The position numbers were made by a program, and so were the translations under genes. This document shows, one piece after another, positions 27,914 to 50,709 of a DNA stretch of 55,494 nt. Each line of letters starts with the position of its first letter. Positions within the stretch are counted from its first letter, which is position 1. Below the pieces are notes generated by a model that saw nothing but the letters and a program-made list of their open reading frames with translations, was not told where the DNA came from and ran no database searches. Location of the stretch: positions 1 through 55,494 of the forward strand of contig CALMYE010000237.1 of assembly GCA_937873425.1 (NCBI GenBank), given 5' to 3'. This DNA comes from an uncultured Sphingopyxis sp. (GTDB lineage Bacteria > Pseudomonadota > Alphaproteobacteria > Sphingomonadales > Sphingomonadaceae).

Positions 27914-27929
27914 ACCTAGTTATACAACT
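27914..27929. promoter_or_regulatory. shared operator motif, site 1
   Basis: ACCTAGTTATACAACT; the core AGTTATACAACT differs by one base from the perfect palindrome found at sites 2 and 4. It lies between the divergent starts at 27879 and 27969. A TTGACC...TATGAC pair, 27911-27916 and 27933-27938, with a 16-base gap surrounds it, so a bound protein would block that promoter. Confidence 0.75.
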
Positions 27930-27968
27930 CGCTATGACATGGATCGCAACATCAGGGCAAGGGCTGCG

Positions 27969-29060
27969 ATGAATTTCGACCTCAGCGATGAACAGAAAAT
28001 GCTCGGCGAGCAAGCCCGCGCGCTGCTTTCGGACCTGTCGTCCTTCGACCGGCTGCGTAGCCTGATCGATTCGGGCGCCGAATGGGACGAGCCGCTGTGG
28101 CGCGCGCTCGCCGACATGGGCTTTCTGGGCGCGGCGATTCCCGAGGCGCATGGCGGGCTCGGGCTCGGCGCGCTCGACCTCGGCGTGATCATGGAGGCGC
28201 TGGGCGGCGCCAATGCCGCGGTGCCCTTCATGAGTTCGATCGTGCTCGGCGCTGAAGCGATCCGGCTGGCGGGCAGCGAGGCACAGAAGGCGGCATGGCT
28301 GCCGAAGCTGGCGAGCGGCGAGGCGGTGGCGACCTTTGCCTATGCCGAGGGACCGGGGCCGGTGTTCGCGAGCGGCGCGAAGCTCGACGGTGGTAAGCTG
28401 AACGGTGCCAAGTCACCGGTCGCCGACGCGGGCATCGCCGACATCGCGGTGGTGCTGGTTTCGGGCGGCGGCTTCGCGCTCGTCGAACTCGACCAGCCCG
28501 GCATTACGCGCACGAAGCTCGACAGCTTCGACCAGCTTCGCCCGCATTACCGGCTCGATTTCGCCGATGCCGCCGCCGAGTCGATGCCGGGCGCGGGCAA
28601 GCTCGACCGGCTGATCGACCAGGCGGCGGTGCAGGCGGCGTTCGAGGCCGTGGGCGCTGCTGAAGCCTGCCTCCACATGGCGCGCGACTATGCGATGGAG
28701 CGGCAGATTTTCGGGCGCCCGCTCGCCGGCTATCAGGCGATCAAGCACAAGCTCGCCGATGTCGCGGTGGCGACCGAATTGGCGCGCTCGAACGCCTATT
28801 ATGGCGGCTGGGCGGCCGAATCCTCGCCCGACGATCTGCCCGCGGCGGCGGCGGCGGCGCGGCTTTCGGGGATCAAATGTCTCGAGATGGCGGCGCGCGA
28901 GAATCTGCAGGTGCATGGCGGCATCGGCTATACCTTCGAGGCGAACTGCCATTTCTATTACCGGCGCGAACGGATGCTCGCCGTGCATCTCGGCGGGCGG
29001 GGCTATTGGGCCGACCGGCTGCTGAACGCGCAACCGGGCAGTCAGGCGAAGGCGGCGTAG
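27969..29060 (+). CDS. acyl-CoA dehydrogenase, small subunit type (pair 2)
   Basis: A 363-residue subunit beginning MNFDLSDEQKMLGEQ. It lacks the FSEPAGGSD block and keeps FGRPLAGYQAIKHKLAD near residue 250 and QVHGGIGYTFEANCHFYYRR near 315, the pattern of the partner chain in heteromeric dehydrogenases. ATG at 27969 is used; an upstream start at 27939 would add ten poorly conserved residues. The stop is one base before the ATG of the large subunit, so the two should be made together. Control is expected from the palindrome 40 bases upstream. Confidence 0.9.
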   Translation: MNFDLSDEQKMLGEQARALLSDLSSFDRLRSLIDSGAEWDEPLWRALADMGFLGAAIPEAHGGLGLGALDLGVIMEALGGANAAVPFMSSIVLGAEAIRLAGSEAQKAAWLPKLASGEAVATFAYAEGPGPVFASGAKLDGGKLNGAKSPVADAGIADIAVVLVSGGGFALVELDQPGITRTKLDSFDQLRPHYRLDFADAAAESMPGAGKLDRLIDQAAVQAAFEAVGAAEACLHMARDYAMERQIFGRPLAGYQAIKHKLADVAVATELARSNAYYGGWAAESSPDDLPAAAAAARLSGIKCLEMAARENLQVHGGIGYTFEANCHFYYRRERMLAVHLGGRGYWADRLLNAQPGSQAKAA

Positions 29061-29061
29061 G

Positions 29062-30285
29062 ATGGATTTCAATGACAGCCCCGAGGAAGCCGCCTTCCGC
29101 GCCGAAGCGCGCGCATGGCTCGCGGCGCACGCCCCTGCGCACGAACTGCCGGCGGGCGTTGCCATGCCCGACACCGAAGAGGCCGATCGCGGCCGCGCCT
29201 GGATGCGCGAGCTTTACGCGGGCGGCTGGTCGGGCCTGACCTTCCCGAAGGCGCTCGGCGGGCGCGGCGCGTCGGGGATCGAGGCGGTGATCTTTGCCGA
29301 GGAGGAAGGGAAATATCGCCTTCCCAAGGGACCCTTCACCTCGATCGGCACCGGCATGGCGCTGCCCGTCATCGCGAAGCACGGCAATGACGAGCAGAAG
29401 GCGCGCTTCATCGAAGCGACGCTGAAGGGCGACATCACCTGGTGCCAGCTTTTCTCCGAGCCCGCCGCCGGGTCCGACCTCGCCGGACTGCGGACCAAGG
29501 CGGTGCGTGCGGACGATGGGTCGGGCGACTGGATCGTCAACGGGCAGAAGGTCTGGTCGAGCTGGGCGCATCTGACCGACTGGGGCATCCTCGTCGTGCG
29601 CACCGACCCGACCGTGCCCAAGCACAAGGGGCTGACCTTCTTCGTCGTCGACATGAAGACGCCGGGGATCGAGACGCGCCCGATCCGCCAGATTTCGGGC
29701 GCGAGCGAGTTCAACGAGACCTTCCTGACCGACGTGCGCATTCCCGATGCCAACCGCCTCGGCGCCGAGGGCGAGGGCTGGGCGTGCTGCATGACGGTGC
29801 TGATGGGCGAGCGGCTGGGGTCGGGCGCGCATCGCAGCGGGATCGAGCCGCTGATCGACTATGCCGCCGCGACCCCCGACGGCCACGGCGGGACGATGCT
29901 CGACGATCGTTCGATCCGCCAGCAACTCGCCGAAGCACTGGCCGAGGAGCAGGGTGAGCGCTTCTTTCAGGCGCGGCTGCGCACCATGGTGTCGAAGGGC
30001 GAGAATCCCGGTGCGCTCGCGGGGATGGTCAAGCTGGCCTATGCGGCGCGCTATCAGAAGACCAACGGCCTGGCGCTGGAGCTGCGCGGGCTGGCCGGGA
30101 TAGCGCCCGAGGCGGGCGATACCGCGACCGGCGACGTGCAGTATGATTACATCTATTCGACCGTGATGCGTATCGCGGGCGGTGCCGACGAGGTTCTGCT
30201 CAACCAGATCGCCGAACGCGTGCTGGGGATGCCCGGCGAAGTGCGGATGGACAAGGATGTGCCGTTCGAGAAATTGAAGGGGTGA
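29062..30285 (+). CDS. acyl-CoA dehydrogenase, large subunit type (pair 2)
   Basis: A 407-residue flavoprotein with CQLFSEPAAGSDLAGL near residue 128 and IVNGQKVWSSWAHLTD near 158. As in pair 1 the C-terminus has MRIAGGADEVLLNQIAERVLG with Ala where SCAD-type enzymes have the base, and E250 in MGERLGSGAH is the likely base by analogy with isovaleryl-CoA dehydrogenase. It should form an alpha2beta2 enzyme with the preceding gene product. Proposed role is alpha,beta-desaturation of a bulky acyl-CoA. Confidence 0.9.
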   Translation: MDFNDSPEEAAFRAEARAWLAAHAPAHELPAGVAMPDTEEADRGRAWMRELYAGGWSGLTFPKALGGRGASGIEAVIFAEEEGKYRLPKGPFTSIGTGMALPVIAKHGNDEQKARFIEATLKGDITWCQLFSEPAAGSDLAGLRTKAVRADDGSGDWIVNGQKVWSSWAHLTDWGILVVRTDPTVPKHKGLTFFVVDMKTPGIETRPIRQISGASEFNETFLTDVRIPDANRLGAEGEGWACCMTVLMGERLGSGAHRSGIEPLIDYAAATPDGHGGTMLDDRSIRQQLAEALAEEQGERFFQARLRTMVSKGENPGALAGMVKLAYAARYQKTNGLALELRGLAGIAPEAGDTATGDVQYDYIYSTVMRIAGGADEVLLNQIAERVLGMPGEVRMDKDVPFEKLKG

Positions 30286-30426: not shown

Positions 30427-31917
30427 TCAAGCCGCCCGCCGCCGCGCTTCCGCGGCCTTCGCCAGCGGTTCCGCCAGCTCCTTCTTCAATATCTTCCCGT
30501 TCGGGTTGAGCGGCATCGTGTCCAGCACCACCAGCGTGCGCGGCACCTTGTTGTCGGCGAGATGCTGCTTGCAGAAGGCGAGGATGTCGTCGGCGCTCGC
30601 TTCGCCGCATCCGGGGCGCAGCGTCACCGCCGCCGCGATGTCCTCGCCCAGCACCTCGTGCGGCACCCCGACGACCGCCGCCTGCTGCACCGCCGGGTGC
30701 AGGTGCAGCGCGGTCTCGATCTCCAGCGGGGTGATGTTGTAGCCGCCGCGGATGATCAACTCCTTCGACCGGCCGGCCATGATCAGGTCGCCGTCGGCAT
30801 CGACGAAACCGAGGTCGCCGGTCTTGGTCCAGCCGCCCTTGAAGCTTTCCGCGGTCGCTTGCGCGTCGTTCCAGTAGCGGCGCGGATGTTTCTGCCAACC
30901 ATAGATTTCGCCGACGACACCGGCTTCGGTGACGACATTCCCCGCCTCGTCGCGGATTTGCATGTGCGGCGGCAGCTTGCCGACGCAGCCGGGTTTCATC
31001 ACCTGCGCCTGGCTGGAGGTGCCGAGCCCGACGCCGCCCTCCGACATGCCATAGCTGTTGCGGATGCGCAGGTGCGGCCAGAGTTCCGCCGCGCGCTTCA
31101 CCGAATCGTGCGGCAGCGGCGCGGTGCCGGTCATCAGATATTTGACGTCGGCGAGGTCGTAGTTGCCGGCCTCGGGATGATCGAGGATCAGGCGGAGCAT
31201 CGACGGCACCAGATAGATGAGGTTGGGCTTCTTCTCCGCCGCCAGTTCCAGAAAGCCCTTCGGGTCGAATTTCGGCTGGGTGATCGCGGTTGCGCCGCCG
31301 CGCGCGGGCAGCATGACGATGCCGATATTGCCGCCCGACCCGGTCAGCGGCAGCGCGCTGAGCGTCGAACGCGACCGGTCCATGTTGCGCCCGGTGACGT
31401 TCGTCATCAGGTCGGGGTGCGACACGACGACGCCCTTGATCTTGCCCGTCGTCCCCGAGGTGCCGAGGATTTCGGCATCGGCGTTCGGATCGAGGCTCGC
31501 CTGATCGGGCAGCGCGGCGATGTCGCGCGGCATGGCCTCGGCGTGCCAGCAGCCCGCGAGGTCGAGGTCCTTCACCAGATCGGGCGCGTCGGTGATGCAG
31601 AAGCGTGGTTCGCACAGCGCCGCATAATCGGCGATTTCCCTAGGGTTGAGCCGCGTGTTGATCGGGCAGGCGATGCCGCCCGCGCGGAACACGGCGAACA
31701 CCGCGATCGCCATTTCGACCGCATGCGCGTTGCTGATCGGCAGGAAGACGCGGTCGCCCGGAACGAGCCCTGCCGCCGCCAGCCCGCCGCCCACCTCGTC
31801 GGCCTCGCGGTCCCATTCCGCGAAGCTGATCTGCCGCCTGATATCGTCGTGCGCGATGTCGTCGGCCTGGTGGCTGGCGCGCACCTTCAGCGCATCGCTG
31901 ATGCGGCGAACTTGCAT
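30427..31917 (-). CDS. AMP-forming acyl-CoA ligase
   Basis: A 496-residue adenylate-forming enzyme that activates a carboxylic acid to its CoA thioester. The P-loop LGTSGTTGKIKG lies near residue 155, the A5 region NSYGMSEGGVGLG near 290, the hinge TGDLGFVDADGDLIMAGR near 370, and the catalytic Lys region LNPNGKILKKEL near 475. ATG at 31917 with AAGGGGAT upstream is preferred over the GTG at 31941, which lacks a ribosome site. It is divergent from the MaoC-like gene across operator site 2. The substrate is unknown. Confidence 0.9.
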   Translation of the reverse strand: MQVRRISDALKVRASHQADDIAHDDIRRQISFAEWDREADEVGGGLAAAGLVPGDRVFLPISNAHAVEMAIAVFAVFRAGGIACPINTRLNPREIADYAALCEPRFCITDAPDLVKDLDLAGCWHAEAMPRDIAALPDQASLDPNADAEILGTSGTTGKIKGVVVSHPDLMTNVTGRNMDRSRSTLSALPLTGSGGNIGIVMLPARGGATAITQPKFDPKGFLELAAEKKPNLIYLVPSMLRLILDHPEAGNYDLADVKYLMTGTAPLPHDSVKRAAELWPHLRIRNSYGMSEGGVGLGTSSQAQVMKPGCVGKLPPHMQIRDEAGNVVTEAGVVGEIYGWQKHPRRYWNDAQATAESFKGGWTKTGDLGFVDADGDLIMAGRSKELIIRGGYNITPLEIETALHLHPAVQQAAVVGVPHEVLGEDIAAAVTLRPGCGEASADDILAFCKQHLADNKVPRTLVVLDTMPLNPNGKILKKELAEPLAKAAEARRRAA

Positions 31918-31956: not shown

Positions 31957-31972
31957 ACCTAGTTATATAACT
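31957..31972. promoter_or_regulatory. shared operator motif, site 2 (perfect core)
   Basis: ACCTAGTTATATAACT with a perfect 12-base palindromic core, AGTTATATAACT, at 31961-31972. It lies between divergent genes starting at 31917 and 31992, only 20 bases before the MaoC-like ATG. A possible -35 (TTGAGC, 31944-31949) sits 16 bases before TATAAC inside the core, so the core may overlap a -10 element. Confidence 0.8.
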
Positions 31973-31991: not shown

Positions 31992-33278
31992 ATGGCCGAG
32001 GCGAAAAGCGACATCAAGCAGAGCGATGAGTGGCAAAAGGCCGTCGCTTACGAAATCACGGACGAGGATATCGAGCGGCAACGCAAGCTGCTCGGTTTCG
32101 ACCAGCCGGCGAAGACGCGCGAATATACCACCACCGCGACCGAGGATAATATCCGCAACTTCGCGCACGGTATGGGCGACGACAAGCCGCTCTACACCGA
32201 CCCCAATTATGCGAGGAAGACCCGCTGGGGCAGCGTGATCGCGCCCGGCATGATGGCGGGGATCATCAACAAGCCGCTGAAGGGCGATCCGGTCCCCGAC
32301 GAGATCAAGGCGCTGAAGAAGAGCCTGTTCAAGGGCATCCATGTCTTCGTTTCGGGATCGCAGTGGGATTTCTATCGCCCGATCTTTCCCGGCGACATCA
32401 TCTACAGCTTCAACGGCGACGAATCCTGCGAGGTGAAGCAGTCGGAATTCGCGGGACGGTCGGTCATCGGCGTGCGCCGCGACGTGAAATTCAACCAGCG
32501 CGGCGAGGTCGTCGCGGTCTATCGCATCCTGCGCGTCCTTACCGAGCGCAAGACGGCGGTCAAGAAGGGCAAATATTCGGCGATCGAGCCCGCCACCTAT
32601 ACCGACGAGGAAATGCAGGCGATCGAGGACATCTATGCCGCCGAACGCGTCCAGGGCGCCGAGAAGCGCTGGTTCGAAAAGGTCGAGAAGGGCGATTCGC
32701 TGGGGCTTCAGGCGAAAGGCCCGCTGACCGTCACCGATGTGATCTGTTTCCACGCCGGCGGTTACGGCTTCGTGCCCTATGCGCCGACCGCCAACCGGCT
32801 CGCGCACAAGAACCGCCAGCGCATCCCCGCCTTCTACGTCAAGAACGAGCATGGCATCCCCGACGTCGCGCAGCGGCTGCACTGGGACCCGACCTGGGCG
32901 CAGGCGATCGGCAATCCGATGGCCTATGACTATGGCGTGATGCGCGAGAATTTCCTGTGGCAGTATCTGACCGACTGGGCCGGCGATGATGCGGTCATCA
33001 CCCACATCCACGACGAGGTCCGCAAGTTCAACTATATGGGCGACGTCCAGCGCGTGACCGGCGAGGTGCTCGCGAAGCGCAAGGACGGCAGGCAGAGCCT
33101 GGTCGATGTCGCGGTCAAGTTCACCAACCAGCGCGACGAGGAAACGGTGCGCGCCACCGCGACCATCGCGCTGCCGAGCGAAGAGCGCCCGCTGCCGCTC
33201 TATCCGGAGGTTCCCGAGGAGCTGGCGGAAAAGGCGGTGCGCATGCTGGCGCGCCACCGCGAGCTCGGCGGGGATTGA
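31992..33278 (+). CDS. two-domain MaoC-like (R)-enoyl-CoA hydratase
   Basis: A 428-residue protein with two hot-dog folds. The N-terminal half (residues about 20-190) is FAS1-dehydratase-like, with TTTATEDNIRNFAHGMGDDKPLY and WGSVIAPGMMAG. The C-terminal half has KGPLTVTDVICFHAGG near residue 245 and ends in a thioesterase/dehydratase-like strand set. Full-length two-domain forms hydrate bulky enoyl-CoAs such as steroid side-chain intermediates (ChsH-type function is split over two chains in mycobacteria). The ATG at 31992 follows AAGGGAGAT; an upstream GTG at 31974 overlaps the operator and is unlikely. Confidence 0.85.
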   Translation: MAEAKSDIKQSDEWQKAVAYEITDEDIERQRKLLGFDQPAKTREYTTTATEDNIRNFAHGMGDDKPLYTDPNYARKTRWGSVIAPGMMAGIINKPLKGDPVPDEIKALKKSLFKGIHVFVSGSQWDFYRPIFPGDIIYSFNGDESCEVKQSEFAGRSVIGVRRDVKFNQRGEVVAVYRILRVLTERKTAVKKGKYSAIEPATYTDEEMQAIEDIYAAERVQGAEKRWFEKVEKGDSLGLQAKGPLTVTDVICFHAGGYGFVPYAPTANRLAHKNRQRIPAFYVKNEHGIPDVAQRLHWDPTWAQAIGNPMAYDYGVMRENFLWQYLTDWAGDDAVITHIHDEVRKFNYMGDVQRVTGEVLAKRKDGRQSLVDVAVKFTNQRDEETVRATATIALPSEERPLPLYPEVPEELAEKAVRMLARHRELGGD

Positions 33279-33296
33279 GGACAGGCGTGCGCCAAG

Positions 33297-33461
33297 CCCC
33301 TCCTCTTCAGAGGAGGGGCCTGCGAGACTTGGCAGCTTGCTGCCTAGTCGCAGCGGGGTGGTGGACGAGGCGGGGCGCGTGTCTTCGGGCACCACCCCGC
33401 TGCGACTAGGTCCGGCTGATGCCGAACCAAGTCTCGCTGCCCCTCCTCTGAAGAGGAGGGG
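33297..33461. repeat. large composite stem-loop repeat (family E), copy 3
   Basis: A 165-base element with CCCCTCCTCTTCAGAGGAGGGG at both ends and the inner GCGAGACTTGGCAGCTTGC / CTAGTCGCAGCGGGGTGGTG set on both arms in inverted order. It lies inside what would otherwise be one operon, between the MaoC-like gene and the first crotonase gene, so downstream genes may have reduced or separate expression. Confidence 0.85.
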
Positions 33462-33518
33462 TTGAGCGGAGGCGGCCGCAGTCCCAAAGCGGACGTCCGC
33501 GATTGCCGGGGAGGAATG

Positions 33519-34316
33519 ATGAGCGAAATATTGATCGACGATGATGCGGGCGTCCGCACCATCACCCTCAACCGGTCCGACCGGCTCAATGCGCTGACGG
33601 GTTCGATCATGGCGCCGCTTGCCGACGCCTGCGCCGATGCGGCGCGTGATGCGTCGGTCGGCTGCGTCGTGGTGACCGGCGCGGGGCGCGGCTTCTGCGC
33701 CGGCGGCGACATCAAGGCGGGCGGTGCCGACAAGGCGGTCGTGCCAGCCAATGCCGAGGTCGGCAGCCGCACCGAACAGGGCTTCGCACGGCTGCGCGGC
33801 TATATGGAAACCGCGCGCCTGCTCCACGAAATGCCCAAGCCGGCGATCGCGATGGTGAATGGCCCCGTCGCGGGCGCGGGCATCGGCATCGCCGGGGCGT
33901 GCGACCTGCGCTTCGCGGCGAAGAGCGCGACCTTCCTGACCGCCTTCGACCGCATCGGCGCGAGCGGCGATTTCGGATCGACCTGGTTCTGGACGAAAAT
34001 CGTCGGCACCGGCGTCGCGCGCGAGATATTCTTCCTCGGCGAGAAACTGTCGGCGGAGGAAGCCTTCGCCAAGGGGCTCTATACGCGCCTGTTCGACGAC
34101 GAGCTATTGCGCGCCGAGACGATGAAGGCCGCCCGCCGCCTCGCCGACGGCCCGCGCATGGGCTATCGTTACATGAAGGCGAACCTCAACAATGCCGAGG
34201 ATTGGGCCTTCGAGGCCGCGCTCGACGCCGAGGCGCTCAATATGGGTCTGTCGACCAGCGCCACCGCGACGATCTGGCGCGAGAAGAAGAAGCAGGAAGA
34301 GCAGAGCGGTGGCTGA
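33519..34316 (+). CDS. crotonase-family protein
   Basis: A 265-residue crotonase fold enzyme. FCAGGDIKAGG near residue 65 is the first oxyanion block and NGPVAGAGIGIAGACDLRFA near 112 the second. Both canonical hydratase Glu positions are non-acidic here; an Asp occurs in IGASGDFGSTWFW. That arrangement suggests isomerase or C-C bond chemistry rather than hydration. ATG at 33519 is chosen because GGAGG lies four bases before it; a tandem ATG at 33516 is too close to that site. It overlaps the following crotonase gene by eight bases. Confidence 0.84.
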   Translation: MSEILIDDDAGVRTITLNRSDRLNALTGSIMAPLADACADAARDASVGCVVVTGAGRGFCAGGDIKAGGADKAVVPANAEVGSRTEQGFARLRGYMETARLLHEMPKPAIAMVNGPVAGAGIGIAGACDLRFAAKSATFLTAFDRIGASGDFGSTWFWTKIVGTGVAREIFFLGEKLSAEEAFAKGLYTRLFDDELLRAETMKAARRLADGPRMGYRYMKANLNNAEDWAFEAALDAEALNMGLSTSATATIWREKKKQEEQSGG

Positions 34317-35106
34317 GTTCGCGCATATCCGCGTCGACCGCCACGACGGCGGCATCGCGGCGGTTGTGGTCGCGCGCGCCGACATCGGCAACGCGTCGTC
34401 GCCCGAGATGCTCGGCGAGATTCGCGATGCCTTCACGGCCCTGTCCGCCGACCGCGACGTGCGCGCGATCCTCTTCGCGGCCGAGGGCAAGCATTTCTCG
34501 GTCGGCGCTGATTTCGCCTTTCTGCAGAAATTGACCGGGATGGCGGCGAGCGAGATCAAGGACACGGTCTACGCCAATTTCCAGGGCGCGGCGCGGGCTA
34601 TCTATCGCTGCCCCAAGCCGACGCTCGCGCTGGTGCAGGGCGCGGCGGTGACCGTGGGCTGCGAGCTCGCGCTCGCCTGCGATTTCCGCATCGCCGCCGA
34701 CAGCGCGATGTTCCAGGAAAGCTGGATCAGACTCGGGATCATGCCGCCGCTCGGCGGGACCTTCCTGCTCCCGCGCATCGTCGGGCTCGGCCGCGCGATG
34801 GAGATGTGCCTGCGCGGCAAGCAGGTCCGCGCCGAGGAAGCGCTGAGCATCGGCCTCGTTAGCGAGGTGGTCGTGAAGGACGCGCTTGCGGTGCGCGGGA
34901 TGGAACTGGCGCGCGAACTCGCCGCTTCCGCGCCGCTCGCTTATGCGACGGTCAAGCAGTCGATCCAGCGCGCGCTCGAAAGCAGCATGGAGGCCGAATG
35001 GCAGGCGAACCTGCCCAACCAGGCGCTGCTGCTCGGCAGCAAGGACCATCGCGAGGGCCTGGCGGCGGTGACGGAGAAGCGCGCGCCGCAATTCCGGGGC
35101 GAATGA
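34309..35106 (+). CDS. crotonase-family enoyl-CoA hydratase/isomerase
   Basis: A 265-residue crotonase starting at GTG 34309 inside the end of the previous gene. The first loop is HFSVGADFAFLQK near residue 63; the second, VQGAAVTVGCELALACDFRIA, keeps the first canonical Glu (GCEL). The second Glu position is Trp (FQESWIRLG). With one Glu kept it could still isomerise or hydrate. The tandem layout of two crotonases with different acid/base sets suggests consecutive steps or a heteromeric enzyme. Confidence 0.85.
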   Translation: MAEFAHIRVDRHDGGIAAVVVARADIGNASSPEMLGEIRDAFTALSADRDVRAILFAAEGKHFSVGADFAFLQKLTGMAASEIKDTVYANFQGAARAIYRCPKPTLALVQGAAVTVGCELALACDFRIAADSAMFQESWIRLGIMPPLGGTFLLPRIVGLGRAMEMCLRGKQVRAEEALSIGLVSEVVVKDALAVRGMELARELAASAPLAYATVKQSIQRALESSMEAEWQANLPNQALLLGSKDHREGLAAVTEKRAPQFRGE

Positions 35107-35128
35107 CCGGCGACCGAAGGGAGAGGCT

Positions 35129-35977
35129 ATGACGCAGGACCGCAAGATTGCCTTCGTCACCGGCGCGAGCCGCGGGATCGGCAAGGCGATCGCACTGGCG
35201 CTCGCCGAAATCGGCCATGACCTCATCCTCTCCGCACGCACGAGGACGCCGGGCGAAGCGCGCGACAATTCGCTGAGCGTCCACAAGAGTGATACCCGCC
35301 CGCTCCCCGGTAGCCTCGCCGAAACGGCGGCGGAGGTGGAGGCGCTCGGGCGCCGCGCGCTTCAACTGCCCTTCGACCTGACCGACCGTGCGTCGGTCGG
35401 GGCGGCGGCACAGCACATTCTCGACCAGCCCGACTGGCGCGACGTGTCGGTGATCGTCCACAACGGCCGCTATATCGGGCCGGGGCTGATGGACGTCTTC
35501 ATGGACACACCGCTCGATGCCTATGGCCGGTTCGTCGAGGCGCATCTGGTCGCGCCGGTGATCCTGACGCGCATGCTGCTGCCCGCGATGCTCGAGCGCG
35601 GCGGCGGAACGGTCGTCACCATCACCTCGAGCGCGGGCTATCAGGTGCCGCCGGCGCCCGCCGGGCAGGGCGGCTGGGGCCTCGCCTATGCTGTCGGCAA
35701 GGCGGCGGGGCATCAACTCGCCGGCACATTGCACGCCGAATATGCGGCGCGCGGAATAAGGGCGTTCAACGTCCAGCCAGGCTTCGTCGCGACCGAGCGC
35801 AACCACATCGCGGTGGCAGACTATGGCAAGGAATTGCGCGGCGCCGCGCCGCCGGCGGCGATCGGCGCGGTGATCCAATGGCTGCTGACCAGCGACGAGG
35901 CGGCGGCGCATGCGGGCGCCAATATCGAGGCGCAGCAATTGTGCCGCGAGCGCGGCCTCCATCCGGCCTGGGACTGA
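35129..35977 (+). CDS. short-chain dehydrogenase/reductase, 282 aa
   Basis: A classical-type SDR with TGASRGIGKA at 11-20, a serine in TITSSAGY near 167, and Y187/K191 in YAVGKAAG. An insertion around residues 40-62 (after SARTR) is longer than usual, and the NNAG motif is replaced by HNGR. The start ATG at 35129 follows GAAGGGAGAGGC. It probably oxidises or reduces a hydroxy/keto group of a CoA-linked intermediate. It lies 22 bases after the second crotonase gene in the same operon. Confidence 0.85.
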   Translation: MTQDRKIAFVTGASRGIGKAIALALAEIGHDLILSARTRTPGEARDNSLSVHKSDTRPLPGSLAETAAEVEALGRRALQLPFDLTDRASVGAAAQHILDQPDWRDVSVIVHNGRYIGPGLMDVFMDTPLDAYGRFVEAHLVAPVILTRMLLPAMLERGGGTVVTITSSAGYQVPPAPAGQGGWGLAYAVGKAAGHQLAGTLHAEYAARGIRAFNVQPGFVATERNHIAVADYGKELRGAAPPAAIGAVIQWLLTSDEAAAHAGANIEAQQLCRERGLHPAWD

Positions 35978-35991
35978 AAGGGAGAGACGGC

Positions 35992-36786
35992 ATGGACCTC
36001 GGCATCAGGGGCAGGGTCGCGATTTCGGGCGGCGGCAGCAAGGGCATGGGCCGCGCGATTTCGGAGGAACTGGCGCGCGAGGGCTGCCGCGTCGTCGTCG
36101 CGGCGCGCGGCCGCGAGGCGGTCGACGCGGTCGTTGCGAAGATCCGCGCCGATGGCGGCGAGGCGGTGCCCGCCTATGCCGACATGGCGCGCAAGGAAGG
36201 GATCGAGGCGGCGGTGCGCGTCGCCACCGAAAGCTGGGGCGCGCCCGACATCGCGGTCGGCAATGTCTATGGCCCGCAGCACGGCCGCTGGGAGGAGACG
36301 AAGGACGAGGATTTCCGCGACGCTTTCGAGGATATGGTGATGAGCCAGGTCCATCTGCTGCGCGCGGTGACGCCGGCGATGAAGGAAAGGGGATGGGGGC
36401 GCATCGTCCTCATCAATTCGATCTCGTCGAAGGAACCGCACAAGGAACTGCCGCTGGTCACCGCCAACGTCACGCGCGTCGCGGCGACCTCGCTCAACAA
36501 GAGCGCGGCGAACGAACTCGGCGAATATGGCATCACGATCAACACCATCGGAACCGGCGGCTTCGCAACCGACCGCTACACCAGCTATATGCGCCGCACG
36601 ATCGAGGCGCAGGGCCATGATTATGACGAGCGCGAGGCGAAGCGGCGCAGCGAGGTGCCGGTCGGTCGCCTCGGCGAGCCCGAGGAGATGGCGGCGGTCG
36701 TCGCCTTCCTCTGCTCGGCGCGCGCCAGCTATGTCACCGGCCAGTTCATCGTCGTCGACGGCGGCCGCGTGAAGGCGCTCATGTAG
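35992..36786 (+). CDS. atypical SDR lacking the Tyr-Lys pair
   Basis: A 264-residue SDR-fold protein. The cofactor motif is SGGGSKGMG at 12-20. The place of the catalytic YXXXK reads NVTRV (N159 to V163), and NNAG reads GNVYG, though the serine-rich SISS near 143-146 is kept. Such SN/TR-type SDRs are known as a subgroup whose chemistry is poorly defined, as I recall. ATG at 35992 has the GGGAGAGACGG leader typical in this region. Its 3' end overlaps the convergent thioesterase gene by eight bases. Confidence 0.8.
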   Translation: MDLGIRGRVAISGGGSKGMGRAISEELAREGCRVVVAARGREAVDAVVAKIRADGGEAVPAYADMARKEGIEAAVRVATESWGAPDIAVGNVYGPQHGRWEETKDEDFRDAFEDMVMSQVHLLRAVTPAMKERGWGRIVLINSISSKEPHKELPLVTANVTRVAATSLNKSAANELGEYGITINTIGTGGFATDRYTSYMRRTIEAQGHDYDEREAKRRSEVPVGRLGEPEEMAAVVAFLCSARASYVTGQFIVVDGGRVKALM

Positions 36787-37634: not shown

Positions 37635-37650
37635 ACGTAGTTATATAAGT
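37635..37650. promoter_or_regulatory. shared operator motif, site 3
   Basis: ACGTAGTTATATAAGT; the core at 37639-37650 differs from the perfect palindrome by one base. It lies between divergent starts at 37591 and 37688. TTGACG (37632-37637) followed after 17 bases by CATAGA (37655-37660) makes a promoter-like pair for the plus strand around it. Confidence 0.75.
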
Positions 37651-38899: not shown

Positions 38900-38900
38900 C

Positions 38901-39896: not shown

Positions 39897-39900
39897 GGCG

Positions 39901-42330: not shown

Positions 42331-42335
42331 CCGCG

Positions 42336-43268
42336 ATGCTGTCCAGCCTGTCGTTGCCGCTGATGTGCGCGCCGATGAGCTTCGCCTCGTCGGTGCCGCT
42401 CGCCACCGCCTGTTGCCGCGCCGGGGTGATCGGCGGGTGGCAGGGCGGAACGGTGACGCCATTCGACGCCTTTGCCGATTATCTGGCTGCGCTCGACGCG
42501 GTCGAGGGCGGCGCGCCGCCGATCGTCAACATGCCCGCGCGCTGGGGCAGCGATCCCGCCGCCGCCGACCGCCTCGACCTGCTCGAACGCCACCGCGTGC
42601 CGCTGGTGCTCTCCAGCCTCGGCGACCCGTCGGCGCTGATCGAGCGGGTGCATGGCTGGGGCGGGCGCCTCGTCCATGACGTGACGACGATGAAGCATGC
42701 CGAAAAGGCGATCGCGGCGGGCGCCGACGGGCTGATGCTGACCTGCGCCGGAGCGGGCGGGCATACGGGGTTCCTGACGCCGATGGCGTTCGTTCCGGCG
42801 GTAAGGCGGATGTTCGGTGGGCTGCTGATCGTCGCGGGCGGTATTGCCGATGCGCACGGTATTGCCGCTGCGCTGGCGCTCGGCGGCGACATCGCTTGCA
42901 TGGGGACGCGCTTCATCGCGACACTCGAAAGCGGCGTGGTCGAGGGACACCGGGCGATGATCCCCGCCGTCGGCGCGGACGATATCGTCGCCTCGGCAGC
43001 GATGAACGGGGTTCTGGCGCACTGGATGCGCCAATCGATCGAGGCGGTGGGGCTGGATGCGAAGGCGCTGCCGAGCGTTCGCTCGCCGATGCCCGAGGGG
43101 GTAATGCCGTGGCGCGACATATGGAGCGCGGGGCAGAGCGTCGGGCTGATCGACGCGGTTGAGCCGGTGGCGGAACTGGTGGCGCGCATGAAGGGCGAGT
43201 TCGAGGCGCTGCCGGGCGGGCTGGATTGGCGGGCGCGGTTGGCCGAGGTGACGGCGGAGTGGGCATGA
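42336..43268 (+). CDS. nitronate monooxygenase-family flavoprotein, 310 aa
   Basis: An FMN TIM-barrel protein. The start MLSSLSLPLMCAPMSFAS and TCAGAGGHTGFL with H143, the usual His of the family, are present, as are the phosphate-binding blocks IVAGGIADAHG and CMGTRFIATLES. Members act on nitronates or as FMN-dependent reductases/dehydrogenases of CoA esters. It starts five bases after the previous gene and ends the operon, followed by a hairpin. It is divergent in sequence from the second family member at 44359, so the two probably have separate roles. Confidence 0.85.
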   Translation: MLSSLSLPLMCAPMSFASSVPLATACCRAGVIGGWQGGTVTPFDAFADYLAALDAVEGGAPPIVNMPARWGSDPAAADRLDLLERHRVPLVLSSLGDPSALIERVHGWGGRLVHDVTTMKHAEKAIAAGADGLMLTCAGAGGHTGFLTPMAFVPAVRRMFGGLLIVAGGIADAHGIAAALALGGDIACMGTRFIATLESGVVEGHRAMIPAVGADDIVASAAMNGVLAHWMRQSIEAVGLDAKALPSVRSPMPEGVMPWRDIWSAGQSVGLIDAVEPVAELVARMKGEFEALPGGLDWRARLAEVTAEWA

Positions 43269-43298: not shown

Positions 43299-44291
43299 TT
43301 AATCGCCCATCACCAGCACCACACGCCCCGCGCTCTTGCCCGCCGCCGCATCCGCCATTGCCGCGCGGAATTCCTCCAGCGGATAGGTGCGCGCCACCGC
43401 CGGACGCAGCTTGCCCTCCGCCGCCAGCGCGAACACCGCATCGCGGTTCGCTTCGCTCTTCTCGGGCTCGAAAATCCCGAACTGGCGGATATCGACCCCG
43501 ACCAGGCTCGCGCCCTTGAGCAGCGGCAAATTGGTCTTCAGCGCCGCGATGCCGCCGGGGAAACCGATCACCAGATGCCGCCCGTTCCACGCGAGCGAGC
43601 GGAAGGCCGGATCGGTCGCCTCGCCGCCGACCGGATCGAACACCACATCGACGCCCTTGCCGCCGTTCGCCGCCTTGACCTGATCGCGCCAGTCGCCGCC
43701 GCGCGCGTCGATCGCCGCATCCGCGCCGCCCGCCAGCGCCAGCGCGCGCTTTTCCTCGCTCGACGCCGAGCCGATCACGCGCGCGCCGAGATGCCGGCCG
43801 ATCTGCACCGCCGCATAGCCCGTCGCGCCGCCCGCACCGAGCACGAGCAACGTTTCCCCGGCCGTCAACTGCCCCCGATCGACCAGCGCGTGCCATGCCG
43901 TCGCATAGCTGACCGGGAACACCGCCGCCTCCTCGAACGACAGCGCCTCGGGCATCCTGCGCACCACCCGCGCGGGTAGGTTCACCGCCTCGGCGAACAT
44001 CCCGCCCCAACCGCTCGCCACCACCTTGTCGCCGACCGCGAGGTCGCTCACCTCGGAGCCGACGGCCTCGATCACGCCCGCGCATTCGCTGCCGGGAATG
44101 AAAGGCACCGGCGGCTTCACCTGATAGCCGCCGCCCGCTGTCAGCACATCGACGAAGCTGATCCCCGCCGCCCTGATAGAAATCCTTACTTGAGTGGGCG
44201 AGGGCGGACCCGGATCATGATCGACGAGCGCGTAATTTGCCGGCGGGCCGAGTTCATCGGCACGGACGGCACGGGGCAGGGGAGCGGTCAT
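43299..44291 (-). CDS. NADPH:quinone oxidoreductase-type MDR enzyme
   Basis: A 330-residue medium-chain reductase without the zinc-binding Cys set of alcohol dehydrogenases. The nucleotide motif GAGGATGYAAVQIG lies near residue 150, and PPVPFIPGSECAGVIEAVG near residue 60 is typical of quinone-reductase-like members. These can reduce enones, quinones or enoyl-CoAs. It is divergent from the flavoprotein gene at 44359 across operator site 4, which points to a role in the same pathway. Confidence 0.88.
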   Translation of the reverse strand: MTAPLPRAVRADELGPPANYALVDHDPGPPSPTQVRISIRAAGISFVDVLTAGGGYQVKPPVPFIPGSECAGVIEAVGSEVSDLAVGDKVVASGWGGMFAEAVNLPARVVRRMPEALSFEEAAVFPVSYATAWHALVDRGQLTAGETLLVLGAGGATGYAAVQIGRHLGARVIGSASSEEKRALALAGGADAAIDARGGDWRDQVKAANGGKGVDVVFDPVGGEATDPAFRSLAWNGRHLVIGFPGGIAALKTNLPLLKGASLVGVDIRQFGIFEPEKSEANRDAVFALAAEGKLRPAVARTYPLEEFRAAMADAAAGKSAGRVVLVMGD

Positions 44292-44326: not shown

Positions 44327-44342
44327 ACCAAGTTATATAACT
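44327..44342. promoter_or_regulatory. shared operator motif, site 4 (perfect core)
   Basis: ACCAAGTTATATAACT, with the perfect 12-base core at 44331-44342. It sits 17 bases before the ATG at 44359 and 36 bases from the divergent start at 44291. A TATAAC at 44323-44328 just upstream could be the -10 element, placing the core over the start of transcription. Confidence 0.8.
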
Positions 44343-44358: not shown

Positions 44359-45339
44359 ATGGGTTTCAAGACGCGGATCACCGAAATGCTGGGCATCGAA
44401 CATCCGATCGTCCAGGGCGGTATGCAGGCGGTCGGCACCGCCGACATGGCGAGCGCGGTGTCGAATGCCGGCGGCCTCGGCATCATCACCGCGCTGACCC
44501 AGCCGAGCCCGGAAGCGCTGCGCGACGAGATCGAGCGCTGCCGGTCGATGACCGACAAGCCCTTCGGCGTCAACCTGACCGTCTTTCCGACGATCAACTC
44601 GCCCGACTATAACGCCTATGCCGACGCGGTCGTCGAGAGCGGCGTTAAGATCATGGAGACCGCCGGCACCCCCGCGGTGCGCGAGATCTGGGCACGGGTG
44701 AAGCCGCACGGCGTCACCATCCTCCACAAATGCACCGCGGTGCGCCACGCGCTCTCGGCCGAGAAAGCCGGCTGCGACATCATCTCGATCGACGGCTTCG
44801 AATGCGCCGGACATCCGGGCGAGGATGATATCCCGGGCCTGATCCTGATCCCCGCCGCCGCCGACAAGGTGAAGATCCCGATGCTCGCGAGCGGTGGTTT
44901 CGGCGACGGCCGCGGGCTGATCGCCGCGCTGAGCCTCGGCGCCGAGGGCATCAACATGGGGACGCGCTTCTGCGCGACCAAGGAAGCACCGATCCACGAC
45001 AATGTGAAGCAGGCCTATGTCGAGAATGACGAGCGCGGCAGCTTCCTGATCTTCCGCAACTTCAAGAACACCGCGCGCGTCGGCAAGAGCGAAGTCAGCG
45101 AAGAGGTCGTCCGCCGCCTCGCCGAGCCCGACGCCAAATTCGCCGACGTGCAGGAACTGGTCGCCGGCACCGCGGGACGCGAGCTGCTCAAGACCGGCGA
45201 CCTGTCGAAGGGCGTCTTCTGGGCCGGCATGGTGCAGGGGCTGATTCACGATATTCCGACCTGTCGGGAATTGATCGACCGGATCATCAGCGAGGCCGAG
45301 GCGATCCTCGATCAGCGGCTGGCGGGGTTTCGCACCTGA
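44359..45339 (+). CDS. nitronate monooxygenase-family flavoprotein, IpdC-like
   Basis: A 326-residue FMN TIM-barrel protein. The N-terminal GIEHPIVQGGMQAVGTADM, the catalytic-type H152 in FECAGHPGEDDIPG, and ASGGFGDGRGLIAAL then GTRFCATKEAP mark the family. The FECAGHPGEDD block recalls mycobacterial Rv3553 (IpdC), an FMN protein of steroid C/D-ring breakdown; that likeness is from memory. GGAGG eight bases before ATG 44359 fixes the start, and the TTG at 44344 is unlikely. It is a single-gene unit followed by a family-E repeat. Confidence 0.87.
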   Translation: MGFKTRITEMLGIEHPIVQGGMQAVGTADMASAVSNAGGLGIITALTQPSPEALRDEIERCRSMTDKPFGVNLTVFPTINSPDYNAYADAVVESGVKIMETAGTPAVREIWARVKPHGVTILHKCTAVRHALSAEKAGCDIISIDGFECAGHPGEDDIPGLILIPAAADKVKIPMLASGGFGDGRGLIAALSLGAEGINMGTRFCATKEAPIHDNVKQAYVENDERGSFLIFRNFKNTARVGKSEVSEEVVRRLAEPDAKFADVQELVAGTAGRELLKTGDLSKGVFWAGMVQGLIHDIPTCRELIDRIISEAEAILDQRLAGFRT

Positions 45340-45471: not shown

Positions 45472-45472
45472 C

Positions 45473-47727: not shown

Positions 47728-48795
47728 TTACCCGATCAGCCGGATGAGCTTCTCGGCCTCGGCGAAATTGCCGCGCACCAGCCGGTCGAAGAAGCGCCCG
47801 GTCTCGGCGCTCAAAATGCCCTTCGCCGCCTGTGCGACCTTGTACTCGAGGATGCAGCCGCCCTTGAACATGGCGAGGATCAGATAATAGTCGAAGCTGT
47901 CCATGCCGCGCCCGGTGCCCGCGGCATAATGCGCCATCAGTTCCTGCCGGCTCGGCCAGTCGCCGACATTGTAGAGCGCCTTTTCGGGGACATGGCCGGG
48001 GAAGCGCTCGTCGCATATGCCGTTGCAGAACCAGGCGAGATCGAGCAGCGGATCGGCGATCGTCGACAGCTCCCAGTCGATCAGCGCGGTCAGCCGGCAC
48101 GGCGGATCGAAGGCGAAAAGCGCGTTGGGCGTACCGACGTCGCCGTGGATGATGCCGGGGCGGAAATCGCCCGGAATATTTGCGCGCAGCCAGTCGCGGG
48201 TCAGCGCATAGCCGGGCAGCTCGCGCCACTCGAAATCGTAAAGCTGCTTGTAGCTTCTGATCTGGCCTTCCCAGCGGTCGACCTGCCGTTCGAGGAAATT
48301 GTCGGGACGCCCGAAATCTTCGAGACCCACCGCCCGATAATCGACATTGGCGAGCGCGATCAGCCCGTCGACCATCGCGAAGGGGACTTGGCGGGCATGC
48401 GGCGGCTTGTCGAAGGGCGGGCGGTCGTGGATTTTTCCGTCGCGCAGATCGGCGGGCCAGCCCTCGACCAGTTCCATGACATAGAAGGGCGCGCCGATGA
48501 CGCCCGGATCGGCGCAGCTGCCGTGGCAGACCGGATGCGGCACGGCGGTGCCGTTCAGCGCGGTCAGCACGCGCGCTTCGCGTAAGACGCTCTTTTCGCT
48601 GCCCGGCGGCGGCACGGCGGGCGGGCGGCGCAGGATCAGCGTCTCGCCGCCGCGGTTCAGCGACAGGATAACGTTCGACGTGCCGCCGTGGATCTTCTCG
48701 ATGATCAGCGGCCCCGCGCCGAGCGCGGGGATGTTCGCATCGAGCCACGCGGCCAGCCGTTCGGGGTCGGCCAGTGCCTTGACATCGTCGCTCAT
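47728..48795 (-). CDS. APH-fold phosphotransferase (ACAD10/11 kinase half-like)
   Basis: A 355-residue kinase-like protein. The nucleotide-binding N-lobe has IEKIHGGTSNVILSL near residue 32. The catalytic loop is HGDVGTPN (H217, D219, N224) and the metal-binding segment IDWELSTIADPLLD carries D240. Relatives called phosphotransferase family proteins phosphorylate 4-hydroxyacyl-CoAs (human ACAD10/11, bacterial LvaA, from memory). The stop of MarR overlaps its ATG by four bases, so both are co-translated. The dehydrogenase partner lies 217 bases downstream. Confidence 0.87.
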   Translation of the reverse strand: MSDDVKALADPERLAAWLDANIPALGAGPLIIEKIHGGTSNVILSLNRGGETLILRRPPAVPPPGSEKSVLREARVLTALNGTAVPHPVCHGSCADPGVIGAPFYVMELVEGWPADLRDGKIHDRPPFDKPPHARQVPFAMVDGLIALANVDYRAVGLEDFGRPDNFLERQVDRWEGQIRSYKQLYDFEWRELPGYALTRDWLRANIPGDFRPGIIHGDVGTPNALFAFDPPCRLTALIDWELSTIADPLLDLAWFCNGICDERFPGHVPEKALYNVGDWPSRQELMAHYAAGTGRGMDSFDYYLILAMFKGGCILEYKVAQAAKGILSAETGRFFDRLVRGNFAEAEKLIRLIG

Positions 48796-49250
48796 CCGTC
48801 GCGCTCCCGCAAATGGGCTTCGATTTCGGTGCGGATCGCGTGCATCCGCGTCGCGGCGTCGGCAAAGGCCTCCGCATCGACGCGCGCGAGCACAGCGCGG
48901 GTGACGGCTTCGGCGCGTTTGTGGTCGGCCGCCTTCAATGCGCGGCCCGCCTCGGTGGCGACGATCAGCGACGCGCGCTTGTGCTCGGGATTGTCCGTAA
49001 ATTCGATCAGCCCGAGTTCGGCGAGCCGGTTCGCGGCGCGCTGCACCACCTGCCGGGGGTGCCCCAGGCTGCGGCCGATCTGCGCGACAGTGGGCGGCGC
49101 GGCGGCGTTCACCACCGCGGTCAGCACGGTCAGCTCCATCTCGGCAAGGCCGCTCTCCGCGCGCGTATCGGCATAAAGCGCCCGCATCCGCCCGCGCAGC
49201 CGCGCGACCTCGTCGGCGAATCGTTCGAACTCGGGGAAGCGGTCAGGCAT
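48792..49250 (-). CDS. MarR-family transcriptional regulator
   Basis: A 152-residue winged-helix regulator. The recognition region TVAQIGRSLGHPRQVVQRAANRL is at about residues 54-76, followed by the wing LIEFTDNPEHKRASLIVAT and two long dimerisation helices at the termini. It leads the operon with the kinase, and a perfect palindrome lies eight bases before its ATG, so autoregulation is likely. Effectors of MarR proteins in such loci are often CoA thioesters. Confidence 0.9.
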   Translation of the reverse strand: MPDRFPEFERFADEVARLRGRMRALYADTRAESGLAEMELTVLTAVVNAAAPPTVAQIGRSLGHPRQVVQRAANRLAELGLIEFTDNPEHKRASLIVATEAGRALKAADHKRAEAVTRAVLARVDAEAFADAATRMHAIRTEIEAHLRERDG

Positions 49251-49257
49251 GGAACTT

Positions 49258-49276
49258 TGATGTCAAAATGACATCA
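49258..49276. promoter_or_regulatory. palindromic operator candidate before marR-type gene
   Basis: TGATGTCA-AAA-TGACATCA is a perfect inverted repeat, eight-base arms with a three-base spacer, starting eight bases upstream of the MarR ATG at 49250. A TTGACA (minus strand, 49279-49284) lies next to it. The form fits a MarR dimer site. It differs from the AGTTATATAACT motif, so this MarR protein is probably not the regulator of the wider island. Confidence 0.78.
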
Positions 49277-49297
49277 TAGTGTCAATTATAAAACCCT

Positions 49298-49381
49298 GTG
49301 CTCCCGCGAAGGCGGGAGCCCATCTCCGGTCGGCGCCATCTCGAACCCACCGGAGATGGGTCCCCGCCTTCGCGGGGACAC
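49298..49381. repeat. 84-bp palindromic repeat, copy 2 of 2
   Basis: Near-identical to 5297-5380, with the same CTCCCGCGAAGGCGGGAG hairpin, the CCATCTCC / GGAGATGG stem, and a closing CCCCGCCTTCGCGGGG hairpin. It lies between the MarR promoter and the end of the SnoaL-like gene. Confidence 0.85.
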
Positions 49382-49398
49382 GGCGGTGGTCTTTAAAA

Positions 49399-49821
49399 TC
49401 AGCGCGTCGCCATCCGTTCGAACAGCGACCCCTCAGCCTGCCAGTCGATCCGCACCCGCCGGTGCGCGAAGCGCCAGCCGTCGGCGGTGCGGATCAGCCG
49501 ATCGTCATAGGTGCCGCTGTGATCGGGTCCGAAATTGCTGTGGACGGTGAAATAGCTGCGCGCCGTCGCCGTATCGCCCTCGACCGCGATCAGCGGGTTG
49601 GTGATATGGTGGCGGACGAAGGTCAGCCGCGCATCGCGCGTCCCCGACGCCAGCGCCGCCGCTATCGCCGCCGGTCCTTGCGGCGCCTTCCCCAGATATT
49701 CGAGGATGCCGTCCTCGGCGAAACAGGCGGTCATCGCGTCGAGCCTTCCGCGGTCGCCATTATAGGTATAGCGCGCGAGCAGGTCGCGGATCGCGTCGCG
49801 ATCTGTGGCAAGGTCAGCCAT
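49399..49821 (-). CDS. SnoaL-like (NTF2-fold) protein, 140 aa
   Basis: A small cone-fold protein. RDAIRDLLARYTYNGDRGRLDAM near residue 8 and the C-terminal strand DGWRFAHRRVRIDW mark the SnoaL_4 group. Members include polyketide cyclases, steroid isomerases and ring hydroxylase-related proteins, and many remain unassigned. ATG at 49821 lies inside the end of the SMP-30 gene (eight-base overlap), so the two are coupled. A role in isomerising or opening a ring intermediate is possible. Confidence 0.8.
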   Translation of the reverse strand: MADLATDRDAIRDLLARYTYNGDRGRLDAMTACFAEDGILEYLGKAPQGPAAIAAALASGTRDARLTFVRHHITNPLIAVEGDTATARSYFTVHSNFGPDHSGTYDDRLIRTADGWRFAHRRVRIDWQAEGSLFERMATR

Positions 49822-50677
49822 TGTAGCAAAGCTCCAGTCCGGGTTCGTCCCAGCGCAGCTTCGCAAGCCGTCCGGAGGTCGAAAGGGTGATCCAGGCGTC
49901 GCGCATGTCGGCGCCGCCGAAGGCGATGTTGGTGACATAGCGTTCGCCGCCGATGGCGAACCGGCTCAGATGCCCATCGGGCGTGATCGTCGTGATCCCG
50001 CCCTCGAAAAGCGTCGCGACGCAGATGTTGCCGGCCGCGGTCACCGCGAGGCTGTCGAAGCCGACCGGACCCGATGCGGTCGCGACCCATTCGGGCTTCT
50101 GCGCCGCGACCTTTCGTTCATACCGCCACAACCGTGCCTGATGCGTGTCGGCGACATAGACATGGGCGCCGTCCGGGGACAGGCCGATGCCGTTGTACGA
50201 CACCGCGTGGCGATTGATCGCGGTGATCGACGACCCGTCGGGCAAGGCGGAAAACAGGCCGCTCGCGGTCCGGATGCCGTCGTGACTCTTACCCAGGTCG
50301 GTGAACCACATTCGCCCCTCGGCGTCGAAAACCATGTCGTTCGGCGCTTCCAGAGGAATGCCGTCGCACGCCTCGTAAACCCGCTCGAACTTGCCGGTCG
50401 CCAGATCGACGCGCTCGATGCGCCCTTCATGGCCCGGCCCGCGCGCATTCCGGAATCTCGCGAGGTCGAGTCCGCCATTATTGCACACATAGAGCGCGCC
50501 GTCGGGGCCGATCGCGGCACCATTGGGGCCGCCGCCGATGTCGCAGACCGTCTCCTTGCGCCCGTTGCAGCAGCGCGTGATGCGGCCGCCCGCCAGCTCG
50601 ACGACGATCACCGACCCGTCGGCCATCACCACCGGCCCCTCGGGAAAGGCGAGGCCGTCCGCGACGATCTCCATCAT
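49814..50677 (-). CDS. SMP-30/gluconolactonase-family lactonase
   Basis: A 287-residue six-bladed beta-propeller of the SMP-30 family, which hydrolyse lactones with a divalent metal. Likely metal ligands are the Glu in AFPEGPVV near residue 13, Asn in EAPNDMVF near 110, Asn in SYNGIGLSPDG near 160, and Asp in GFDSLAV near 205. No signal peptide. The ATG at 50677 follows AGGAGAGCGTG; GTG at 50680 and ATG at 50674 are alternatives. It is divergent from the SDR gene across operator site 5. Confidence 0.87.
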   Translation of the reverse strand: MMEIVADGLAFPEGPVVMADGSVIVVELAGGRITRCCNGRKETVCDIGGGPNGAAIGPDGALYVCNNGGLDLARFRNARGPGHEGRIERVDLATGKFERVYEACDGIPLEAPNDMVFDAEGRMWFTDLGKSHDGIRTASGLFSALPDGSSITAINRHAVSYNGIGLSPDGAHVYVADTHQARLWRYERKVAAQKPEWVATASGPVGFDSLAVTAAGNICVATLFEGGITTITPDGHLSRFAIGGERYVTNIAFGGADMRDAWITLSTSGRLAKLRWDEPGLELCYNG

Positions 50678-50693
50678 CACGCTCTCCTGTATA

Positions 50694-50709
50694 ACCTAGT
50701 TAGTCATGT
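50694..50709. promoter_or_regulatory. shared operator motif, site 5 (degenerate)
   Basis: ACCTAGTTAGTCATGT matches the left half of the motif exactly (ACCTAGTTA) but only 7 of 12 core bases overall. It lies between divergent starts at 50677 and 50759. Next to it is a second small palindrome, CATGTCTTGACATG, at 50705-50718, whose inner TTGACA could be a -35 element. It may be a weak site or bind a different protein. Confidence 0.5.

Follow-up and report, generated by a model that had tools for sequence, protein, structure and literature searches.

Described operators and the present locus

Operators of the FadR subfamily are described by the consensus TKGT-N2/3-ACMA, with BioR (TTATMKATAA) and NanR (repeats of TGGTATAW) among the published exceptions (PMC4494728; this and the other papers named below are cited from excerpts of their text). 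In Agrobacterium fabrum, the FCD-type GntR protein Atu1419 represses a catabolic cluster through sites of the form ATGTATACAT, which lie over the -10/-35 regions of several promoters including its own (PMC7797058). In the sphingomonad Caenibius tardaugens a steroid-type cluster is controlled by the local repressor EdcR, a TetR-family estrogen repressor which acts at palindromes (operator TnnCnnTACnAnTnGTAnnGnnA) at its promoters (PMC8700777), while the other sphingomonad steroid regulators mentioned for Caenibius and Sphingobium are TetR, AraC, LuxR or Lrp/AsnC genes (PMC12882949, PMC12239570). The present study concerns a 16-base element, ACNTAGTTATAYAAST, which recurs at promoters of a 55,494-nucleotide contig from an uncultured Sphingopyxis sp. 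(CALMYE010000237.1, assembly GCA_937873425.1; the whole contig is referred to as the window, or as C237 where contigs are compared). It is probable, though by no means certain, that this element is the operator of GntR2, an FCD-type regulator encoded in the same catabolic island, which would act as a putative dimeric repressor at about eleven promoters and be released by a metabolite.

Among the described systems, BioR and NanR provide a precedent for TTAT..ATAA and for GGTATA repeats (PMC4494728, PMC8012715), a likeness of sites that was judged by eye only; they differ from the island operator in the genes concerned and in spacing. Among solved structures, NanR scored best by sequence with both GntR2 and its paralog GntR1. 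The Atu1419 site as excerpted differs from the island site, in which GT and AC lie six apart and an asymmetric extension is present, and the island cluster is far larger (PMC7797058). The excerpted EdcR operator is unlike the island sites and was rejected as a model for them, as by eye none of nine sites of the source genome contains TACnAnTnGTA (PMC8700777). No report of this operator, regulon or island was found in open PMC text, the sole literature searched. Judged from sequence, the system is most likely a local regulon of the GntR/FCD type with an atypical operator, seemingly unreported and otherwise an ordinary kind of bacterial control circuit. It would join about eleven operons of an apparently undescribed sphingomonad CoA-dependent catabolic island into one regulon, and its operator would add a departure from the FadR-subfamily consensus.

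The 16-base element and its placement

A preliminary description of the window had proposed a 12-base palindrome, AGTTATATAACT, as the recurring motif at divergent promoters. The palindrome exists, but it is only the right-hand part of the asymmetric 16-mer ACNTAGTTATAYAAST, within which the parts ACNTAGTTA and TATAAST were distinguished, and not all sites proved to be divergent. The plain palindrome was rejected as the unit, as the conserved columns extend asymmetrically over the 16-mer. A position weight matrix (PWM) was trained on nine sites of the source genome, that is, the draft genome of which the window is one contig (4,344,726 bases, 337 contigs, 92% complete). In 113 unique contexts with a score of at least 24, a threshold biased toward likeness to the training sites, the near-invariant columns were A1, C2, T4, A5, G6, T7, T8, A9, A11, A13 and T16, with C or G at position 15 and T or C at position 12. 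Placing the symmetry axis in ATAT gave 5.06 of 6 pairs, and placing it in GTT/ATA 4.24 of 8.

Stretches from eight Sphingopyxis relatives (G025 fetched in part only), from G012 and G013 and from other genera were scanned with the matrix (1.65 Mb in total, about 80% coding). Here and below, genes were called with our own codon-usage script rather than taken from an annotation, and divergence and start distances rest on these calls. None of the 116 sites scoring at least 24 was intragenic; 76 lay between divergent genes, 33 in tandem along the gene, 5 in tandem against it, 1 between convergent genes and 1 at an edge. The reversed sequence gave five matches in the same 1.65 Mb at a threshold of 18.5.

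Across a genus set of 80 Sphingopyxis genomes, the strict pattern ACNTAGTTATATAAST was matched 101 times in 22 genomes, and the reversed pattern never. An origin by chance, or as A/T-rich repeats with no function, is extremely improbable. Such an origin would be compatible with the 12-mer count in the source genome, where the reversed control was close to or above the motif (6 against 8 matches at up to one mismatch, 67 against 20 at up to two) and the count alone is therefore not special; the strict 16-mer count, the placement at promoters and a near-constant spacing in other genera speak against it. The initial judgement that the motif was unlikely to be chance is thus borne out by the strict count, promoter placement and conservation, not by the number of 12-mers.

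Sites in the window and elsewhere in the genome

All five sites first described in the window were recovered with the same positions and sequences, on the plus strand and between divergent genes. With up to two mismatches, the 12-mer had four matches in the window, a count not attained in any of 100 dinucleotide shuffles (mean 0.07); the fifth site, at 50694, was detected only with the 16-mer at five mismatches. Pfam scans covered chosen genes of the source genome, which in the window lie beyond position 22624 and on contigs C56 and C259 include all but a few.

The first site (ACCTAGTTATACAACT, 27914-27929) separates an enoyl-CoA hydratase family gene (27079-27879, minus strand; PF00378) from two acyl-CoA dehydrogenase genes (27969-30285, plus strand). 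The second (ACCTAGTTATATAACT, 31957-31972) is flanked by an acyl-CoA ligase gene (30427-31917, minus strand; PF00501) and by a plus-strand group encoding a MaoC-type dehydratase, two enoyl-CoA hydratases and two short-chain dehydrogenases/reductases (SDRs) (31992-36786). Facing the third (ACGTAGTTATATAAGT, 37635-37650) is an acyl-CoA thioesterase family gene (36779-37591, minus strand; PF20789, PF13622), and downstream of it are an acyl-CoA dehydrogenase pair followed by WS/DGAT, DUF7065 and NMO genes (37688-43268, plus strand). The fourth (ACCAAGTTATATAACT, 44327-44342) lies between a zinc-type alcohol dehydrogenase gene (43299-44291, minus strand; PF00107), for which our caller prefers a start at 44147, and an NMO-family gene (44359-45339, plus strand; PF03060). 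The weak fifth site (ACCTAGTTAGTCATGT, 50694-50709) stands between an SMP-30/gluconolactonase-family gene (49814-50677, minus strand; PF08450) and SDR genes (50789-52993, plus strand), which are followed on the same strand by the GntR2 gene. From the 16-mer to the plus-strand start, the distances at the first four sites were 39, 19, 37 and 16 nt; for the fifth the distance is 79 nt with the start that our caller chose and 49 nt with a TTG start at 50759.

The preliminary description had placed the motif in the five window regions only. Genome-wide, eight matches to the 12-mer were found at up to one mismatch, four in the window, three on C56 and one on C259. All eight are at promoters and fall on just three contigs, which together make up 91 kb or about 2% of the genome. 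Behind them are catabolic genes of the acyl-CoA type along with genes for a TonB receptor and a GntR regulator, so that the motif was not found to be frequent outside the promoters of one gene set. It is this placement, rather than the number of matches, that is special. The sites outside the window lie upstream of a TonB-dependent receptor gene (C56:9564), between an amidohydrolase gene and the GntR1 gene (C56:15034), upstream of genes for a thiolase of the lipid-transfer type and a ChsH2-like OB-fold protein (C56:17099) and upstream of an acyl-CoA ligase (C259:4952). Weaker sites were seen upstream of another OB-fold/thiolase pair, opposite another amidohydrolase (C255:4034), and, on the minus strand, upstream of an enoyl-CoA hydratase gene (C56:2969); with these two and the site at 50694 the total comes to eleven, and parts missing from the draft may hold more. 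Two of the nine strong sites (C56:9559 and C56:17094) are not divergent. Twelve further 12-mer matches had exactly two mismatches, and of five contexts inspected (C255:4038, C153, C234, C131 and C278) one, that on C255, appears to fit the regulon. A looser pattern, ACNTAGTTANNTAAST, was not enriched at up to two mismatches (18+9 matches against 23+14 reversed), although all seven of its exact matches fall on contigs of the island (C56, C237, C255 and C259). Multicopper-oxidase and CopB-type copper genes (L018:6982-9599) adjoin the C259 acyl-CoA ligase gene and have no counterpart in the fetched stretches of relatives.

Conservation and extent of the island

The window sites were followed into relatives by means of orthologous proteins of at least 58% identity, an upstream region being counted as positive at shuffle p<=0.01. 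For the eight Sphingopyxis relatives protein identity was 87-97%, which leaves G012, G013 and the other genera as the informative comparisons. Conservation at orthologous promoters was found for every site, ranging from 4 of 8 to 12 of 13 regions. The site at 31957 was recovered in 12 of 13 regions (missed in G001), that at 50694 in 11 of 13 (missed in G428 and G134), that at 37635 in 10 of 12 (missed in G369 and G428) and that at 27914 in 8 of 11 (missed in G392, G012 and G013). At 44327 the site was recovered in 4 of 8 regions, all four of them from Sphingopyxis (missed in G440, G428, G392 and G134). Spacing was near-constant in other genera, above all for the sites at 31957 and 37635. The site at 50694 scores higher and is closer to the consensus in G014, G031, G025, G012 and G440, and is taken as a real member for that reason.

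In seven Sphingopyxis genomes all strict matches lie on one contig of more than 3.7 Mb, and in six of these (G014, G015, G026, G034, G061 and G064) the 30 strict matches are confined to 68-71 kb. In G034, G014, G061, G018, G031 and G068, the orthologs of the C237, C56 and C259 sites extend over 65-75 kb; in G001 they are divided between two contigs. By comparison with six Sphingopyxis relatives, the three site-bearing contigs of the source genome correspond to one catabolic island of about 70 kb. The regulon originally suggested for a mixed set of genes is supported, with the gene set now recognised as one island and with GntR2 added as a candidate for the regulator, which had not been named. 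The 16-mer could serve as a precise query with which to search draft genomes for the island and for pieces of it that are missing.

The pathway appears to be CoA-dependent and to degrade a bulky lipophilic substrate, possibly a steroid-like one, a hint taken from the ChsH2-like OB-fold proteins, lipid-transfer-type thiolases, paired acyl-CoA dehydrogenases and TonB receptor. With steroid-specific NCBIfam models no scanned gene reached the cut-off, the lone cut-off-level result listed being to a general thiolase, and literature searches on DUF2889 and on the island gene set yielded nothing useful.

Candidate regulators

Among the scanned genes of the source genome, four regulators are encoded near sites: GntR2 and a MarR-family protein in the window, and GntR1 and a TetR-family protein on C56. 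GntR2 (53071-53871, plus strand; our caller prefers a start at 53101) and GntR1 (C56:15068-15835; L017:2568-3338) both match the GntR helix-turn-helix (HTH) and FCD families. For GntR2 the values were 5.9e-17 (PF00392) and 1.5e-18 (PF07729); for GntR1 they were 9.8e-9 (PF07729) and 3e-5 (PF00392), the latter below the Pfam cut-off (24.0 against 27 bits). Further FCD-GntR relatives, with 42% and 35% identity to GntR2, were seen at two places on contig C205 (L196) of G000.

All 22 motif-positive Sphingopyxis genomes have GntR2 at 76% identity or more. Among the remaining 58, identity to GntR2 exceeded 44% (E<=1e-30) only in G012 (74%) and G013 (71%), each of which carries PWM sites; G013 has five scoring at least 22, and no GntR1 match. 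In a draw of 397 genomes from the family, ACNTAGTTATAYAAST was matched in 13, and a GntR2 relative (E<=1e-55) was found in 12 of these 13 compared with 13 of the other 384 (Fisher 2.4e-15, with relatedness not corrected). Paired searches at E<=1e-20 in 24 chosen genomes identified GntR1 in 7 and GntR2 in 17. In that set, both proteins occur in G012 and in the genomes that have at least two exact sites, while the single-site genomes G419, G116, G198, G256 and G396 have GntR2 relatives and no GntR1 match. Motif presence thus nests within GntR2 presence, G266 apart, whereas GntR1 covers a subset, a pattern which favours GntR2 as the candidate binder. GntR2 and GntR1 are the two candidate regulators named here.

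It is unlikely that GntR1 alone is the binder, as a classic local repressor which regulates both the island and its own gene. Such a role would agree with the site at its promoter, which was present with up to two mismatches in all 21 Sphingopyxis orthologs (14 of them exact) and in five of six more distant homologs, G012 being without a clear one. The distribution of the gene is also close to that of the motif: orthologs of at least 68% identity occur in 21 of the 22 motif-positive Sphingopyxis genomes (the remaining one, G044, is a fragmented assembly) and in none of the 58 motif-negative ones, and homologs of 52-56% were found in G012 and in each of the five genomes from other genera that have at least two exact sites, compared with none of 11 exact-motif-negative controls. 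However, G013, G419, G116, G198, G256 and G396 keep the motif and have no GntR1 match, and the HTH score of GntR1 is under the Pfam cut-off.

An arrangement which overlaps with GntR2 as the binder is that both paralogs read one operator, GntR2 as the general regulator and GntR1 as a second, differently gated one under it; this is possible, though decidedly less probable than GntR2 as the operator's main protein. The segments SRPTLRQA and SRPTLREA, which we take to be the GntR recognition helix, are near-identical in the two paralogs, the promoter of GntR1 carries a site, and all 27 genomes found with GntR1 also have GntR2. The FCD-domain histidines, presumably metal binders, are kept in five aligned GntR2-type sequences and missing in four GntR1 sequences. 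Against this, similar helices are common among GntR proteins. A more tentative extension, and one we regard as somewhat doubtful, is that the histidine-bearing GntR2 controls the GntR1 gene through the shared operator, such that the patchy island would open only when two different metabolites are present.

Remote relatives of the regulator

Variants of the element were also found near more distant GntR2 relatives. At nine of eleven loci of the genera labelled g38 and g73 (7 of 7 for g38, 2 of 4 for g73), which have a GntR2 relative of 46-50% identity, a variant such as CACTTAGTTAGATAAGTG lies before the gene that immediately precedes the one for the regulator; the G270 locus has no variant and the G218 locus is cut by a contig end. 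By eye, these variants favour the GTT/ATA axis. Several g38 genomes also carry CACCTAGTTATATA[AT]GTCA upstream of an enoyl-CoA hydratase gene, at a distance of about 6 kb from the gene for the regulator. When the 40 kb surrounding the GntR2 relative (46-50% identity) were compared in three g38 genomes and G396, few counterparts of island genes were seen besides the regulator. Variants upstream of GntR2 relatives are present in Sphingomonas paeninsulae, G392 and G369. The S. paeninsulae plasmid NZ_CP032828.1 carries a similar cluster with a 54% GntR2 relative; AACTAGGTTATATAACC (score 17.4) stands 56 nt ahead of the gene for this relative, and two other sites of about 19 were found in 100 kb compared with one reversed-control match.

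Plasmids of a betaproteobacterium (Massilia putida, L199) and of actinobacteria (among them Mycobacterium branderi, L200) encode FCD-GntR relatives (40-43%) along with relatives of the island MaoC protein (51-61%). No site scoring at least 18 was present in the 40 kb scanned of each of the two named plasmids.

Proposed mode of action

We infer that GntR2 would bind the asymmetric ACNTAGTTATAYAAST as a dimer at about eleven promoters of the 70-kb island. Sites lie 9 to about 80 nt before start codons, where a bound protein would block RNA polymerase; repression is therefore likely, judged from this position and by analogy with Atu1419, with GntR2 presumably covering the core promoter. The protein would be released by a metabolite of the pathway, probably either a carboxylic acid or a CoA thioester; once identified, this inducer would point to the substrate of the island. 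GntR1, a paralog with a degenerate FCD domain, would be under the same operator and may bind it too.

Several observations weigh against this proposal. Co-occurrence would arise equally if GntR2 were a marker gene of the island and not the binder, and genomes that are related do not count as independent cases. No clear site is present at GntR2's own promoter in Sphingopyxis, whereas the GntR1 promoter has one in 21 of 21 orthologs. Single-site G266 has just a partial 33% match to GntR2; G116, G419 and G396 carry their GntR2 relative on a contig other than that with the site, and G396 has no site scoring 18.5 or more in 40 kb around that relative. In 4 of 13 exact-motif-negative genomes with a GntR2 relative (G417, G422, G270 and G432) no site of at least 13 was found within 1.5 kb of the gene, and the g38/g73 variants score 14-21, below the main set and without a control at scores that low. 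In G025, the seventh genome with all strict matches on one contig, the two strict matches lie 890 kb apart. The FadR-subfamily form TKGT-N2/3-ACMA does not fit either, as GT and AC are 6 apart in AGTTATATAACT in the consensus of the 113 contexts. Finally, tandem sites run mostly along the gene (32 of 37), which a symmetric repressor site would not require.

This last bias, with the asymmetry of the element, its A/T-richness and its closeness to start codons, would also suit a promoter element, such as the -10/-35 region of a special sigma factor, in place of a repressor operator. A sigma-70-like match on the minus strand (44369-44340) overlaps the end of the site at 44327, and is one of two matches found between 27800 and 45000. 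Those two compare with 1.4 expected, however, and neither is on the plus strand; the distance from site to start codon varies among promoters from 9 to about 80 nt, and the C255 site is so near the start that a Shine-Dalgarno-like GGGAG directly follows it. A promoter element is consequently considered very unlikely, and GntR2 acting at an operator is preferred. A riboswitch or other known RNA element was rejected, as no Rfam family matched at the gathering score in window positions 27000-53500.

Other regulators near the sites

The TetR protein encoded on C56 was rejected as the binder. In a comparison set of 20 genomes, chosen from those with the motif or with GntR2, it was found in 13 and not in G044, G419, G116, G198, G256, G298 or G396. 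The MarR-family protein (48792-49250, minus strand; PF12802) was likewise rejected, being present at E<=1e-12 in 7 of the 20 genomes; a GntR2 relative was found in all 20. No island-type site was seen in the inspected sequence upstream of the MarR gene. That sequence (49250-49290) carries TGATGTCA/TGACATCA repeats, which are unlike the motif studied here and are probably the operator of the MarR protein itself. Between the MarR gene and the next gene, at 49298-49381, lies an inverted repeat with 36-nt arms which are 86% complementary, resembling repeats of the REP/MITE type.

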